A DNA stretch of 64,000 nt from Williamsia herbipolensis (GTDB taxonomy: Bacteria > Actinomycetota > Actinomycetes > Mycobacteriales > Mycobacteriaceae). The notes under the pieces are model-generated. The model had not been told where the DNA came from and made no database searches. It saw nothing but the letters and a program-made list of their open reading frames with translations. The translations under genes and the position numbers were made by a program. The stretch lies in the NCBI RefSeq assembly GCF_000964005.1, contig NZ_JXYP01000020.1, forward strand, positions 124,001 through 188,000. Direction: 5' to 3'. Position 1 is the stretch's first letter. Each line of letters opens with the position of its first letter. Positions 40,682-59,593 of the stretch are shown here, in pieces.

Positions 40682-42402
40682 CAGAACAGGAAGTAGCGCT
40701 GGGCCATCGGCAATGAGGTCGCCGGTTGCTCCTCCCACACCTCGCCGTCGATGCGGACGGTGAAGGTGTCGGGATCGACGACGATGTCGGGGGTGGCGTC
40801 GTTGAGCGGCATGTCGGCCTTGCCCACCGCGCGCACATTGCCGACCGGTGCGAGTCGTCGTCGGACACCGAGCCGGTCGGCGAGACCGTCGTCGAGGGCC
40901 TGCTGGGTCACGAATGTCAGCGAGGTGTCGGCCGCGACCGGCGCCGAGGCGCCGAACATGGGGCGCGGCAGCACCGGCTGCGGGGTCGGGATCGAGGCGT
41001 TGGCGTCGCCCATGGCCGCCCAGGCGATGGCGCCGCCCTTCACCACCACATGCGGCCTGATGCCGAAGAACGCCGGTTCCCACAGCACGAGGTCGGCGAG
41101 CTTGCCCACCTCGATCGAGCCGATCTCGTGGTCGAGGCCGTGGGCCACCGCGGGACAGATCGTGTACTTCGCGACGTAGCGTCGGGCGCGGTTGTTGTCG
41201 GCGCGGGAGTCACCGGCGAGCGAACCCCGCCGGGACTTCATCACGTGCGCGGTCTGCCACGTGCGCAGCACCACCTCACCGACACGTCCCATGGCCTGGG
41301 CGTCGGAGCCGATCATCGAGATCGCACCGAGGTCGTGCAGCAGATCCTCGGCGGCGATCGTCGAGGGACGGATCCGACTCTCGGCGAAGGCGAGGTCCTC
41401 GGGCACGCTGGGGTTGAGATGGTGGCAGACCATCAGCATGTCGAGGTGTTCGTCGAGAGTGTTCACGGTGTGCGGGCGCGTGGGATTGGTCGAACTCGGC
41501 AGGACGTTCGGATAGCTTGCGACGGTGATGATGTCGGGTGCGTGCCCGCCACCGGCACCCTCGGTGTGGTAGGCGTGGATCCCCCGGCCGGCGATGGCCC
41601 CGAGCGTGTGCTCGACGAACCCCGCCTCGTTGAGGGTGTCGGAGTGCAGGGCCACCTGTACGCCGGTCTCGTCGGCGATCCGTAGACAGGCGTCGATCGC
41701 CGCCGGGGTGCTCCCCCAGTCCTCGTGCACCTTGAATCCCGATGCGCCGGCGAGGATCTGCTCGCGCATGGAGTCGGCCCCGACCGTGTTGCCCTTGCCC
41801 AGCAGCGCGATGTTCATCGGCCAGTGGTCGGTGGCGGCGATCATCGACGCCAGGTGCCACGCGCCCGGCGTGACCGTGGTCGCCTTGCTGCCCTCGGCCG
41901 GGCCGGTGCCCCCGCCGATGAGCGTCGTGATCCCGTTGCCGAGGGCCTCGTCCATGATCTGCGGCGCGATGAAGTGGACGTGGCAGTCGATGCCGCCCGC
42001 GGTCACGATCTTGCCGTTGCCCGCGATGATCTCGGTCGACGGGCCGATCACGAGGTCGGGGTGCACACCGTCCATGGTGTCGGGGTTGCCGGCCTTGCCC
42101 AGAGCGACGATGCGACCGTCACGAATTCCCAGGTCCGCCTTGATGATCCCCCAGTAATCGAGAACGACGACACCGGTGATGACGGTGTCCGGGGCGCCTT
42201 CGGCGCGGGTGGCGCGGCCCTGACCCATCGATTCGCGGATCACCTTGCCCCCGCCGAACACCGCCTCGTCACCGGCCAGACCCGGTCCGCCGCAGCGGTC
42301 CTCGGTCACCTCGATGAGAAGGTCGGTGTCGGCAAGGCGGATCCGGTCGCCGACGGTCGGACCGAACAGTTCCGCGTATCGGGACCTGTGCAGCGACGCC
42401 AT
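40681..42402 (-). CDS. ureC: urease subunit alpha (catalytic)
   Basis: The 573-residue amidohydrolase holds the dinuclear nickel centre. Visible ligands and motifs are [13 protein letters not shown] (two His), the carbamylated lysine in [47 protein letters not shown], the flap [22 protein letters not shown] with its catalytic His, and [16 protein letters not shown] with the Asp ligand. It hydrolyses urea to ammonia and carbamate. It starts one base after the ureB stop. All expected ligands are present. Confidence 0.98.
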
Positions 42403-42403
42403 G

Positions 42404-42742
42404 TCAGTCCAGCCTTCCCGGCGGGTCGAGGGAGAGGCCGGGGACCACCCGGGCCCCGCCGATGGGGATGAGGTCGACGGTCATCTCGATACCCGGTTCG
42501 AAACGCACGGCCGTTCCCGCAGGGATGTCGAGTCGTCGACCGTGCGCCTGCTCCCGGGGGAACGACAACGCCGGATTGCACTGCGCGAAGTGGAAGTGGC
42601 TGCCGACCTGGACGGGTCGATCACCGGTGTTGACGACGACGATCTGCGTCACAGGCGCTCCGGCGTTGATCTCGATCTCGCCGTCGTCGCAGAGGATCTC
42701 ACCGGGGACCACGCGGCTCGCGCCGGCCGGATGGGCGGTCAT
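42404..42742 (-). CDS. ureB: urease subunit beta
   Basis: The 112-residue protein has the beta-subunit signature [46 protein letters not shown] and GGARVVPGL. It is a structural subunit of the (UreABC)3 enzyme. ATG at 42742 overlaps the ureA stop in an ATGA. Confidence 0.96.
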
Positions 42743-43165: not shown

Positions 43166-44425
43166 TCAGACCGGTCGACGCCCTGCGGCCACCGCGGCCA
43201 CGCGGGCCGGGGTGATCGCGGGTGCGAGCGCGGCGACGTCGTCGTGGGTGAATGCGCCGCACGCCCATCCCCGCGCCACCACCGTGGCCATCGCCCGGGC
43301 GGTGGCCGGCTCGTCGAGCACGCCGGTGTCGGATCCCGGGTCGGCCGTGCCGTCGCCGGTCACCCGCTCGAGATGACCACCGAGACGGGCCGCAGCGGCC
43401 GGCATCGCCTCGGCGAAGAACGTCTGCACCGCCAACCATCGGGTCACCAGGTGTCCCGGGTGCATGTCCCAGCCCTGGTAGATGCCGCATTCGAGGGAAC
43501 GCCGCACCAGACGGTGGTGGCGTCGGAGAGCCGAGGCGACACGGTCGGGGTCACCGGTCGGCACGACCTGTGTCGATCCGTCGCTCACCCACACCCCGGT
43601 CTGCGCAGCGGCGGCGAGCATGACGGCCTTGGCGTGGTCGGCGACGGGGTGTTCGAGTGACTGATGCGCCGACACCACACCCATCGCGGCGCTGTAATCG
43701 TAGGTACCGTAATGCAATCCGCTCAGTCGCGGACCCGAACGGTGGATGGCGGCGGCCACGGTGGCGGTACCGTCGAATCCGATCACCGCCTGCGGACTCT
43801 CGATCTGTAGCTCGAACCGGACGGTGTTCTCGCCGAGTCCGTGCGCGCGTTCGATCTCCTCACAGAGCGCGACCACGGCGTCGACCTGTTCGACCGCGCG
43901 CAGTTTCGGCACGGTGAACACGAATCGGTTGGGCACCCCGCCCGCGCCGGTGAGCACCATCTCCATGCTCCGCAGCCCGCGACGCCGTTCGGCCGCACCG
44001 AGCCCCTTGCACCGCACCCCGGAGGACAACCGCGGTCCGGTGGCGGTGCGTGACCAATGGGCGAGCACCTCGCCGGCCGCGCGGGCGTGGGCGTCCTCGA
44101 CGTCGTCGGGTCGGTTGCCGTATCCGTCCTCGAGGTCGATGCGCAAGTCGTCGACGGGGTCGCGGCGCAACCGGGCGATCACGGCGTCGACCGCGGCATC
44201 GGAGGACAGTGCGACGAGCACCGGACGGTTCGCCTCGGCGATCGACACCGCCTCGGTCGACCACAGTGAGAGGGTGTCGCTCGCCACGACGTCGGCGCCG
44301 ACGTACACGGTGTGGACGGGTTGTTCGTCGACGCGCACATCGGGGTACATGGCGTCGAGTCGAGCGTCGACGGGGTCGAGGATCGCGTCCATCCGCTGCG
44401 CGGCGCGATCGGTCAGGCCGGTCAT
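43166..44425 (-). CDS. DUF6986 family, HpcH/HpaI aldolase-like protein
   Basis: The 419-residue protein looks like a TIM-barrel phosphoenolpyruvate/pyruvate-type lyase: DLRIDLEDGYGNRPDD (metal-binding acidic motif), FVFTVPKLRAVEQVDAVVALC, VRFELQIESPQAVIG with the Glu ligand, HYGTYDYSAAMGV and IYQGWDMHPGHLVTRW. I recognise this as the DUF6986 group; substrates are unknown. ATG at 44425 follows GAGGTGACGG at good distance; GTG 44434 is the alternative. It sits between the thioesterase and the urease genes on the same strand, and is not at this place in M. tuberculosis. Confidence 0.75.
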   Translation of the reverse strand: MTGLTDRAAQRMDAILDPVDARLDAMYPDVRVDEQPVHTVYVGADVVASDTLSLWSTEAVSIAEANRPVLVALSSDAAVDAVIARLRRDPVDDLRIDLEDGYGNRPDDVEDAHARAAGEVLAHWSRTATGPRLSSGVRCKGLGAAERRRGLRSMEMVLTGAGGVPNRFVFTVPKLRAVEQVDAVVALCEEIERAHGLGENTVRFELQIESPQAVIGFDGTATVAAAIHRSGPRLSGLHYGTYDYSAAMGVVSAHQSLEHPVADHAKAVMLAAAAQTGVWVSDGSTQVVPTGDPDRVASALRRHHRLVRRSLECGIYQGWDMHPGHLVTRWLAVQTFFAEAMPAAAARLGGHLERVTGDGTADPGSDTGVLDEPATARAMATVVARGWACGAFTHDDVAALAPAITPARVAAVAAGRRPV

Positions 44426-44435
44426 CGCCGTCACC

Positions 44436-44855
44436 TCAGGACGGTCGGTTGTCGAGATTCTGCAGACGGACGCGACCCTGGGCGACCAACCGGTCGTCGG
44501 CGTCGGTGATGTCGACCTGCCACAGCTGCTGCGAACGCCCGCGATGGATCGGGACGGCCCGGCCGGTCACCCGGCCGCTGCGGACCGCTTTGAGGAAGTC
44601 GGTCGAGTTGTTGACCCCCACGACGCTGGCCGGCAGGCCTTTGTCCTGCAACCACTTCGCCGCCGACACCGAGGCCAGCGATTCGACGAGCGCACAGTAC
44701 GTGCCGCCGTGGACGATCCCGTAGGGCTGATGGTGGACGGCCCCGGCCTCGAAGCTCGCGACGGAACCGTCTCCGCTGATCGTCGAGTAGTCGAAGCCGA
44801 GGGTGGCGTCGAGTCCGCTGGTCACCATGTCGGTCATCGACAGTTCGTCTGCCAC
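44436..44855 (-). CDS. PaaI-like hotdog thioesterase (Rv1847-type)
   Basis: The 139-residue protein has PYGIVHGGTYCALVESLASVSAA, the hotdog helix of PaaI/EntH-type thioesterases with the conserved HGG, and VGVNNSTDFLKAVRSG. GTG at 44855 is chosen because GAAGGAG lies 5 nt before it; earlier starts would read through the terminator hairpin at 44926-44960. By gene order next to blaI and urease it corresponds to Rv1847. A hotdog thioesterase beside an iron-controlled promoter could act in siderophore clearing like EntH, but that is speculation. Confidence 0.88.
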   Translation of the reverse strand: MADELSMTDMVTSGLDATLGFDYSTISGDGSVASFEAGAVHHQPYGIVHGGTYCALVESLASVSAAKWLQDKGLPASVVGVNNSTDFLKAVRSGRVTGRAVPIHRGRSQQLWQVDITDADDRLVAQGRVRLQNLDNRPS

Positions 44856-44920
44856 GGGAACTCCTTCGGGGGTCGGATGAGGTGACCCTATGCCACGACC
44901 GCGGCGGGGAAACGGAGCGG

Positions 44921-45014
44921 AAAACCGGCAGGCCCCACACCGGGGGTGTGGGGCCTGCCGTGGCGTGGACCGGGGGTCTCTGCAGCCCTCAGGACGCTCG
45001 CGCGGTCCGACGTT
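44921..45014 (-). ncRNA. candidate iron-regulated small RNA, MrsI-like
   Basis: A promoter (TTGACG at 45045-45050, 18-bp spacer, TATCTT at 45021-45026, minus strand) overlaps an IdeR-type box and points to a predicted start near 45014. About 50 nt later a 16-bp perfect stem (44945-44960 with 44926-44941) is followed by TTTT, so the transcript should be near 94 nt. A 5' stem pairs 45003-45008 with 44967-44972. No frame is present. The site, between blaI and the Rv1847-like gene and in the thioesterase's direction, is that of mycobacterial MrsI (ncRv11846), an IdeR-controlled sRNA that lowers expression of iron-storage genes. Homology rests on position and architecture, not on sequence comparison. 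Confidence 0.7.
44926..44960 (-). terminator. intrinsic terminator of the candidate sRNA
   Basis: A perfect 16-bp GC-rich stem (arms 44926-44941 and 44945-44960) with a 3-nt loop is followed on the minus strand by TTTT at 44924-44921. It lies upstream of the thioesterase start rather than after a coding gene, which points to termination of a short non-coding transcript or attenuation of the thioesterase message. Confidence 0.88.
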
Positions 45015-45018
45015 GTGA

Positions 45019-45037
45019 TTAAGATAGGCTACCCTTA
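45019..45037. promoter_or_regulatory. DtxR/IdeR-type iron box with divergent promoters
   Basis: The sequence TTAAGATAGGCTACCCTTA matches the IdeR consensus TTAGGTTAGGCTAACCTAA at 15 of 19 positions, including the whole TAGGCTA core. On the minus strand it covers the spacer and -10 of the sRNA promoter. On the plus strand it fills exactly the 17-bp spacer between TTGTGA (45013-45018) and TATCGA (45036-45041), a possible blaI promoter. Iron-loaded IdeR bound here should repress both directions. Confidence 0.7.
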
Positions 45038-45141
45038 TCGAGATCGTCAAGTGGGTCGACTAACTGGCCGTCGCGGCCAGTATCACGATCGCGGGGCCTG
45101 CGGTGACGCCCCGCACCGCATACATCGGTAAACTCGGGAGG

Positions 45142-45531
45142 ATGAGCGGTTTGGGTGATCTGGAACGCGCGGTCATGGACAATCTCTGGTCCAGCGACCG
45201 CCCGCAGACGGTGCGGCAGGTACACGCAGCGCTGTCGCGTGACCGCGAGCTGGCCTACACGACCGTGATGACGGTGCTGCAGCGCCTGGCCAAGAAGAAC
45301 CTGGTCACGCAGATCCGTGACGACCGCGCTCACCAGTACTCCCCCACCCACCCGCGCGAACACCTCGTCGCGAGCCTCATGGTCGACGCACTGAGCGAGG
45401 CCGACGAGTCGACATCGCGCCACGCGGCGCTGGTCTCCTTCGTGGGCCGCGTGGGCGCCGACGAGGCCGACGCCCTGCGACGCGCTCTCGACGAACTCGA
45501 GGCCGCCCGTCCGGACTCCGGAAGCCGCTGA
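45142..45531 (+). CDS. blaI: BlaI/MecI/CopY family transcriptional repressor
   Basis: The 129-residue winged-helix protein has LGDLERAVMDNLWSSDRPQTVRQVHAALSRDRELAYTTVMTVLQRLAKKNLVTQI and a C-terminal dimerisation helix region. It should repress its own operon and beta-lactam-response genes; in M. tuberculosis the equivalent is Rv1846c. ATG at 45142 follows CGGGAGG. The next gene is an M56 peptidase, the usual inactivating partner. An iron box lies about 105 bp upstream. Confidence 0.93.
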   Translation: MSGLGDLERAVMDNLWSSDRPQTVRQVHAALSRDRELAYTTVMTVLQRLAKKNLVTQIRDDRAHQYSPTHPREHLVASLMVDALSEADESTSRHAALVSFVGRVGADEADALRRALDELEAARPDSGSR

Positions 45532-45622
45532 CCGGGCAGTCGCATCTGTGCCTGGAGGACATGCTCTCCCGGGTAGAATGGCGGTGTCACCCGCCGCGCA
45601 CCGCGACCCGTAGGACTCACTG

Positions 45623-46570
45623 ATGACCGCCTTGGTATTCGGGCTCTTCGCCCTGATCCTCACCGGGCCGGTCGCCGAGTGGCTCTCCCGGGCACGGTGG
45701 ACGCTGCGTGCCCCGCGAGCTGCCATGACCCTGTGGCAGGCGGTCGCGCTGGCCGCCGTGCTCTCGGCCTTCAGCTGCGGACTCGCCATCGCCTCCAACC
45801 TGCTGGTCGTCGGACCCGATGGACGGCCGACGACGAACCCGCTCGACGAGATCGACTCCCTCGGCATCACCCTGTGGCTCGTCTACGTCGGTGTCTTCGT
45901 CCTCACCCTCGTCATCGGTGCACGCCTGATGTACACCGTCGTACGGGTGGGCGTACGCACCCGCGCCCGCCGCTCGGCCCACCGCCAACTGATCGACCTG
46001 CTCGACTGCGTCGACCGCAGCCGCTGCGATCGGCAACTGTTGGCCCGCGACGTCCGCATGCTCGAGGTCGAGCAACCCATCGCGTACTGCCTGCCCGGAC
46101 TGCGGCAGCGCGTCGTGCTCAGCGAGGGCGTCATCGCCCGCCTGAACCCCGACGAGCTCGAGGCCGTCATCACACACGAGCGCGCGCACCTGCGTGCCCG
46201 CCACGACCTCATCCTCGAGGCGTTCATCGCCGTGCACGCCGCGTTCCCGCGCTTCATCCGCAGCAAGTCCGCTCTCGGTGCCGTCCAACTCCTGGTCGAG
46301 GTCCTCGCCGACGACCACGCCGTGCGGGCCACCGGACCCACGCCGCTCGGTCGGGCCCTGGTGGCGTGCGCCGATTCGGTCGCACCGCGCGGGGCGCTCG
46401 CCGTCGGCGGCCCCACCACCCTCACGCGCGTCCGCCGCCTCACCCACGACGAGCCCGCACGCACCGCCGCCCTGGCCGCGTACGTGTGCGCGGTCGGCAT
46501 CCTGGTGCTGCCCACCCTCGCGGTGGCCATCCCCTGGCTCACCGAACTCAGTCGACTGCTCACCGCCTGA
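45623..46570 (+). CDS. M56 family membrane metallopeptidase (BlaR1/MecR1-like)
   Basis: The 315-residue membrane protein has hydrophobic segments near residues 1-15, 38-62, 82-104 and 285-307, and a cytosolic zinc-peptidase domain with HERAHLRARHD (HExxH at 185-189) and VEVLADDHAVRATG supplying the third ligand. It lacks the extracellular penicillin-binding sensor domain of staphylococcal BlaR1, so it may respond to a different cue. It follows blaI by 91 bp; TAGAAT at about 45574-45579 may be a -10 of its own. It probably cleaves BlaI. Equivalent of Rv1845c by order. Confidence 0.9.
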   Translation: MTALVFGLFALILTGPVAEWLSRARWTLRAPRAAMTLWQAVALAAVLSAFSCGLAIASNLLVVGPDGRPTTNPLDEIDSLGITLWLVYVGVFVLTLVIGARLMYTVVRVGVRTRARRSAHRQLIDLLDCVDRSRCDRQLLARDVRMLEVEQPIAYCLPGLRQRVVLSEGVIARLNPDELEAVITHERAHLRARHDLILEAFIAVHAAFPRFIRSKSALGAVQLLVEVLADDHAVRATGPTPLGRALVACADSVAPRGALAVGGPTTLTRVRRLTHDEPARTAALAAYVCAVGILVLPTLAVAIPWLTELSRLLTA

Positions 46571-56449: not shown

Positions 56450-59308
<2,859 letters not shown>

Positions 59309-59326
59309 GGGAGAACCTTTGCGCCG

Positions 59327-59347
59327 AGTCCGGCGGCACGCCGGACT
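59327..59347 (-). promoter_or_regulatory. hairpin between riboswitch and gcvP start
   Basis: A perfect 8-bp hairpin (59327-59334 with 59340-59347, 5-nt loop) ends 7 nt before AAAGG, the likely gcvP ribosome site. It has no T-run, so control of ribosome access or an expression-platform fold is likelier than simple termination. Confidence 0.55.
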
Positions 59348-59360
59348 GAGGTGGGTCCTC

Positions 59361-59575
59361 CCCCTCTGTCCTGCCGTCACCGACGCGATGGGTCGGCTCG
59401 GGCGCCTGAGAGATTCAGCCGCTCGGAGCGGCCTTTCACCGTGGGCGGGTGACTCGGTCACCACTTTCCAGAGACGCCGGCGTACGACACGGTCCTGGGG
59501 CCTGAGAGATTGGCGGAGAGGTGTTGCTCCTTCGGCGGCCGAGACCCTCGCGGGTCACGACGCTCTCCCGTGTCG
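59361..59575 (-). promoter_or_regulatory. tandem glycine riboswitch of gcvP
   Basis: On the minus strand, aptamer 1 runs from CGGGAGAG (59570-59563) through GCCGCCGAAGGAGCAA to ATCTCTCAGGC (ending near 59497). Aptamer 2 runs from the GTCTCTGG region (about 59476) through GGTGAAAGGCC to AATCTCTCAGGC and GGACAGAGGGG (near 59361). The paired CTCTCAGG blocks and GGTGAAAGG/CCGAAGGAGCAA cores are the conserved glycine-aptamer parts. Aptamer 2 carries an extra hairpin between CTCTCAGG and GACAGAGG. Position directly before gcvP agrees with glycine-induced expression. Confidence 0.92.
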
Positions 59576-59593
59576 CGGCGACGTAGGAAGAGT

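Follow-up and report, generated by a model that had tools for sequence, protein, structure and literature searches.

A probable orthologue of the mycobacterial iron-sparing small RNA MrsI beside blaI in Williamsia herbipolensis and many of its relatives

The window analysed here is a stretch of 64,000 nucleotides (nt) from Williamsia herbipolensis (assembly GCF_000964005.1, contig NZ_JXYP01000020.1, positions 124,001 to 188,000 of the forward strand), and its element of interest is a candidate small RNA of the MrsI type, located on the minus strand at 44918..45014 by a match to a covariance model, R1. The candidate occupies the gap between a blaI-type repressor gene (45142..45531, plus strand), which is divergent from it, and the gene of a hotdog-fold thioesterase (44436..44855, minus strand), which lies downstream on the same strand and is called Rv1847-like here by virtue of its fold and position. 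The promoter scan and the letters themselves revealed a −35 element TTGACG (45045..45050) and a −10 element TATCTT (45021..45026) on the minus strand, separated by 18 nt, with this pair being the sole promoter-like site in 44000-46500 (shuffle mean 0.0). The −10 element is covered by an IdeR-like box, TTAAGATAGGCTACCCTTA (45019..45037, strand not assigned), which agrees at 15 of 19 positions with the IdeR consensus.

From the letters, the RNA likely starts at about 45014 and ends in the T run at 44921. Its intrinsic terminator (44921..44960, minus strand) consists of a perfect 16-base-pair (bp) hairpin at 44926-44960 with a 3-nt loop, followed by G and then TTTT (44924-44921), and its stem begins about 53 nt after the likely start. 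The promoter pair, the 15/19 box overlapping it and a perfect 16-bp stem with TTTT some 50 nt after the start had all been named in the original prediction, and each was found again. Ahead of the terminator lies a 5′ hairpin (44967..45008, minus strand) built of an outer stem, inner pairs and loop-closing pairs; the outer stem joins GGACCG (45003-45008) with CGGTCC (44967-44972), and the closing pairs CUG/CAG (44990-44992 with 44980-44982) hold a 7-nt apical loop, AGGGCUG (44983..44989, minus strand), which is proposed as the seed on account of its conservation and of its complement in bfrA leaders. The fold of 44912-45014 has a z-score of −4.0 against shuffled sequences, with none of 200 shuffles equally stable. 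The terminator scan, whose rule asks for five T in eight, made no call on the window hairpin, and no Rfam family reached its gathering score at the position of the RNA. By sequence, the features of an RNA of about 100 nt with an intrinsic terminator are present (a 97-nt model match, the 16-bp hairpin and TTTT).

The prediction had further stated that no frame lies between the two genes, which proved too strong: read mechanically, the frame of the thioesterase stays open across the RNA element as far as a TTG at 45050 (open reading frame 44436-45050). A thioesterase start at 44855, after GAAGGAG, appears more likely from the letters than the TTG at 45050, and a coding role of the element is disfavoured because its lengths differ between relatives and its hairpins covary. 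Scored against the general hotdog model TIGR00369, the thioesterase passes; it also resembles enzymes of the EntH/MenI type, far under their cut-offs (58.9 against 237 bits for the EntH type); a role in siderophore proofreading, if true, would fit an iron context.

Model R1 was built from 15 sequences of the window's genus and its relatives. The match in the window is 97 nt long with an expectation value (E) of 2.8e-17 (G000:C34:168918-169014), the window sequence being one of those in the model. In loci anchored on blaI, the arrangement is common to all eight genomes of the genus and to several other genera, with the seven other congeneric genomes all carrying a box (13 or 14/19), the 5′ hairpin and a terminator-type hairpin upstream of blaI; since they are conserved in congeners, the elements of the locus are beyond chance. 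R1 matches all eight genomes of the genus. Among 61 relatives it matches 29, namely 29 of the 37 from the same family (its own genome included) and none of the 24 from other families of the order. A wider survey of the family gave matches in 306 of 401 genomes and 23 of 31 genera, with 14 of the 306 having E above 1e-6 and being possibly chance matches, and 336 of 396 genomes were matched in group g29, which we take to be Mycobacterium (group g22 is likewise taken to be Nocardia). Of 298 genomes drawn from the order, 46 were matched; 45 belong to the same family, and the one outside it is a weak outlier (G943, 74 nt, E 1.6e-4), possibly a chance terminator. Two R1 matches each were observed in G169, G179, G207, G228, G254, G506 and G622, being either second copies or chance.

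With looser filters, 21 R1-negative genomes yielded no full-length match of note, an R1 miss in a genome not being proof that the RNA is absent. The best match obtained in this way (G238, 40 nt, E 0.003) proved to be a genuine copy in altered form, sited between blaI and the thioesterase gene (L086 1498-1540), in which the core hairpin and loop are intact, the box is interrupted and the terminator is gone.

The BlaI sequence of PDB 2g9w, used as a query, provided named loci, of which 80 were among the matches listed; 70 of these 80 carry an R1 match on the expected strand upstream of blaI, as the original prediction of an MrsI orthologue at a conserved position would have it. The matched loci are mostly from Mycobacterium, with two matches cut by the end of the locus, and include three close kin of M. 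kansasii, namely M. simulans, M. innocens and M. persicum. The other ten are L151, L178-L181, L185-L187, L191 and L192. A further 44 R1 matches in named loci lie on the opposite strand with E 0.011 or worse, 31 of them spanning the palindromic terminator only. In the slow growers M. simulans, M. innocens and M. gordonae, no more than about 300 nt separate the RNA from blaI and the thioesterase gene comes next; in fast-growing species and in Nocardia, the distance from the RNA to blaI is about 1 kb. The gene standing between blaI and the RNA has an IdeR-like box of its own (16/19) in the two genomes examined, one of Mycobacterium and one of Nocardia, and the region from blaI to the RNA may be a small IdeR-controlled island. 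The proteins encoded by this gene are 235-239 amino acids long (L058 of G035, Mycobacterium; L054 of G028, Nocardia carnea); the one from Nocardia bears a weak likeness to the ferric reductase FhuF (23.7 bits, cut-off 25.2), and for the one from Mycobacterium there is no Pfam match.

For a closer comparison, 72 chosen copies, all matched by R1, were aligned (alignment A3), comprising 31 of the 50 loci L031-L080, 34 of the 70 named loci that R1 matched, and the seven loci L199-L205 in full. The thioesterase gene is downstream on the same strand in all 72, at distances ranging from 33 to 504 nt, and the divergent blaI lies inside the fetched locus in 61. The best IdeR-type 19-mer in the 80 nt around the start scores at least 12/19 in 71 of the 72 and at least 13/19 in 69, a score of 13/19 being attained in 0.4% of shuffled sequences and in 1.1% of the remaining windows of the same loci.

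The core word GAGGGCTG was found on neither strand of 13 R1-negative loci inspected. Ten of these retain both blaI and the thioesterase gene (L151, L178-L181, L185-L187, L191 and L028), and none of the ten has a gap box of at least 12/19 among the two best boxes per strand; in the other three, the thioesterase gene was not found in the locus. The loss of box and core hairpin while blaI and the thioesterase gene stay makes the RNA unit separable from its neighbours. In L178-L180 and L185-L187, which are from Mycolicibacter, and in L181, the box and the core hairpin were lost together, with blaI and the thioesterase gene kept. An 11/19 box-like stretch in the gap of L178 and of L187 may be a remnant.

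In alignment A3, which is fitted to R1, pairing holds in 96.4% of cells, and two-sided changes occur in 26 of the 30 modelled pairs (shuffles 14.0 ± 1.5), with the terminator stem showing them in all 15 of its modelled pairs and the 5′ hairpin in 11 of 15; when partners are slid by one to three columns, pairing drops to 35-49%. The conservation of box and terminator in related genomes is borne out by the box scores and the terminator pairs alike. The apical loop reads AGGGCUG in 71 of the 72 copies and UGGGCUG in the remaining one. Its closing stem reads CUG/CAG in 65, CCG/CGG in four (Nocardia) and CAG/CUG in three, such that the closing pair swaps U-A, C-G and A-U around a fixed loop; a fixed loop on a changing stem looks like the pattern of a seed. 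Sequence drift had been allowed for in the prediction, and the core has hardly drifted. The 5′ stem had been thought an extra one that could hold the seed; it belongs to the conserved core in Mycobacterium too and so is not extra, and its loop is indeed the proposed seed.

MrsI of M. tuberculosis, in the passages of PMC8628891 and PMC11188477 that deal with it, is an RNA of about 100 nt at 2096766-2096867 (+) between blaI and Rv1847, has an IdeR site near its start, a predicted terminator and a 7-nt apical loop with a 6-8-nt seed, lowers bfrA, fprA and hypF, and is described as an independent transcript; its level rises in low iron, according to the relevant part of PMC7029489. The window RNA shares with MrsI (ncRv11846) of M. 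tuberculosis and M. smegmatis, as far as those accounts go, the gap between blaI and Rv1847, the direction, the length of about 100 nt, the IdeR site at the promoter, the terminator and the 7-nt apical loop. Unlike MrsI, it lies outside Mycobacterium, in a genus where the reported target bfrA has no gene over cut-off. The comparison with MrsI of these two species, neither of which figures in the 80 named loci, is by description, the letters having been compared with other Mycobacterium copies. RyhB, PrrF, FsrA and IsrR are iron-sparing small RNAs of other bacteria which, in the part of PMC9410917 consulted, share the logic of a repressor that is off in low iron and an RNA that then lowers iron-protein mRNAs; FsrA is placed there under Fur, whereas MrsI is predicted to be under IdeR. 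The passages returned by a literature search held no report of MrsI outside Mycobacterium, and a search with the core letters gave unrelated papers only. Conserved mycobacterial RNAs were predicted in 2012 from a comparison with Rhodococcus and Nocardia among its genomes (PMC3388012); in the main text of that paper, as retrieved, neither of the terms Rv1846 and Rv1847 occurs.

The reported target bfrA was sought with family TIGR00754 in 40 genomes, of which 23 had a match over the cut-off, and 23 leaders were compared, one per genome, with the second bfrA of G035 left out. The 9-mer CAGCCCTCA, a perfect complement of UGAGGGCUG, is found in the bfrA leader of 5 of 10 Mycobacterium genomes (0.007 expected), where it begins 26-27 nt before the start codon, and the shorter CAGCCC is found in 9 of the 10 (0.79 expected). 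The 13 leaders of other genera contain CAGCCCTC in one case (0.02 expected), CAGCCC in four (0.39 expected) and the 9-mer in none. By duplex energy, 6 of the 10 Mycobacterium leaders beat their shuffles (at most 9 of 200 as good) and the other four do not. The seed complementarity to bfrA leaders that the prediction had proposed to look for is present in half of the Mycobacterium genomes, and in the seven genomes tested of the window's genus there is no bacterioferritin over cut-off to carry it. At the level of complementary letters, these matches tie the loop to its reported target bfrA in part of Mycobacterium.

Targets were also sought within the genus. Two ferritin-family genes of the window genome, ferritin-like and Dps-like by eye, lack any six-letter complement of the seed close to their starts. 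The gapped pattern CAGCCCT...GGA...RTG, searched in eight congeners, showed no enrichment, with 36 sites in the window genome against 128 for the backward control, and the 12 stretches inspected around sites selected from those listed (six of them in the window genome) held no iron gene by eye. The 9-mer CAGCCCTCA occurs 12 times in the window genome (backward control 36), one occurrence being the antisense of the RNA itself; the other 11 sites, nine stretches of two congeners and 30 further loci gave no iron-gene leader by frame analysis. Genes at these seed sites were judged by eye or by frame analysis, without a family search, and targets may thus be missed.

Taken together, sequence, structure and synteny show that the window RNA is homologous to the RNA which mycobacteria carry at the MrsI position, and we consider it very probable that it is an orthologue of the iron-sparing small RNA MrsI, controlled by IdeR and acting through its loop. 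From the box one would predict iron control through IdeR, and the bfrA match, together with what the reviews say of MrsI, suggests that the loop acts on iron-protein messages. With ample iron, iron-bound IdeR would bind the box over the −10 element and block the promoter; when iron falls, an RNA of about 97 nt would be made, ending at the strong hairpin. The 5′ hairpin, whose structure is evident from covariation, would then present the loop AGGGCUG, and the loop would pair with CAGCCCU(CA) in the leaders of messages that encode dispensable iron proteins, and these messages would be blocked or destabilised; such pairing is visible by complementarity in mycobacterial bfrA and is presumed elsewhere.

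Several observations weigh against this reading. The identity with MrsI rests on position and on relatives, and because alignment A3 was fitted to R1 the pair counts lean towards the pairs of the model, one of which (columns 17-47) should be dropped, 34 of 71 copies leaving it unpaired. Within the genus, TTTT follows the terminator hairpin in four of the eight genomes, that of the window among them; the other four have scattered T in place of a T run. CAGCCCT is missing from 5 of the 10 Mycobacterium bfrA leaders, four of which keep CAGCCC, and from 12 of the 13 leaders of other genera, where no duplex stands out by energy (the best two are equalled by 11 and 19 of 200 shuffles). No bacterioferritin over cut-off was found in the seven congeners tested of the eight genomes in the genus, and the searches of the window genome yielded no recognisable seed site in the leader of an iron gene. 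Three of three Nocardia genomes tested likewise have no bacterioferritin over cut-off. Retention of the loop in the window's genus and in Nocardia is accordingly not due to bfrA, and the targets in the window's genus must be others; we read the missing bfrA complement there as a change of targets, not as failed homology.

The alternative that survives best is a dual output, in which a trans-acting RNA of the MrsI type is made together with some read-through into the thioesterase gene, both under IdeR. It would accommodate the constant synteny with the thioesterase gene, the weak T runs of some congeners and the trans-type seed all at once; the unit is, however, separable from blaI and the thioesterase gene, and we regard this arrangement as unlikely. 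Less probable still, and yet the main rival, is a purely cis-acting leader, that is, an iron-controlled 5′ untranslated region and attenuator in which most transcripts would end at the terminator and read-through would make the hotdog thioesterase in low iron. Such a leader could draw on the thioesterase gene standing on the same strand in every aligned copy, on the likeness, far under cut-off, of its product to siderophore proofreading thioesterases of the EntH type, on the frame that is open through the element, on the weak T runs in four of eight congeners and on the G238 copy, where the core hairpin precedes the thioesterase gene without a terminator. It is opposed by the widely varying distance between RNA and thioesterase gene, by the conservation of a loop rather than of a switch between alternative pairings, by the match of that loop to bfrA, a target in trans, by the ten R1-negative loci that keep blaI and the thioesterase gene without GAGGGCTG, and by the description of MrsI as an independent transcript in the review passages cited above. 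That the terminator hairpin and the IdeR-like site alone are real and serve the neighbouring genes, with no trans-acting small RNA, is highly improbable: strong intergenic terminators are common and the terminator supplies 15 of the 30 modelled pairs, but covariation is seen in the 5′ hairpin taken by itself, and the unpaired loop of that hairpin hardly varies.

The RNA recurs across the mycobacteria and many of their relatives, and MrsI, a regulator known from M. tuberculosis, accordingly looks older and more widespread than in the papers searched. We go further with evenly divided confidence: MrsI may be one lineage's use of a much older regulator whose loop is frozen across more than 20 genera and whose regulon has been rewired, with bfrA targeted in mycobacteria and other iron-protein messages in Nocardia, the window's genus and others. 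A frozen seed with a rewired regulon, if true, would let an ancestral iron-sparing network be inferred by comparison. The nearly invariant loop in Nocardia and many genera of the family defines the seed by evolution, R1 provides a covariance model where Rfam called nothing, and the iron-sparing response of the family becomes open to study in harmless, fast-growing hosts. A testable question also arises, namely what keeps the loop frozen in genomes that lack bfrA, its reported target.

Two other features were observed in the window. An Rfam match to 5_ureB_sRNA (66 bits) lies at 41949-42237 on the plus strand, perhaps antisense to urease coding sequence, with a frame that is UreB-like by eye at 42404-42742 on the minus strand; conservation of the urease coding DNA, and not a small RNA, may account for the match. 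On the minus strand at 59356-59580, a pair of adjoining glycine riboswitch aptamers, of which the second only just exceeds its gathering score, stands immediately upstream of a gene that by eye is GcvP-like (glycine dehydrogenase; frame 56450-59464, minus strand).
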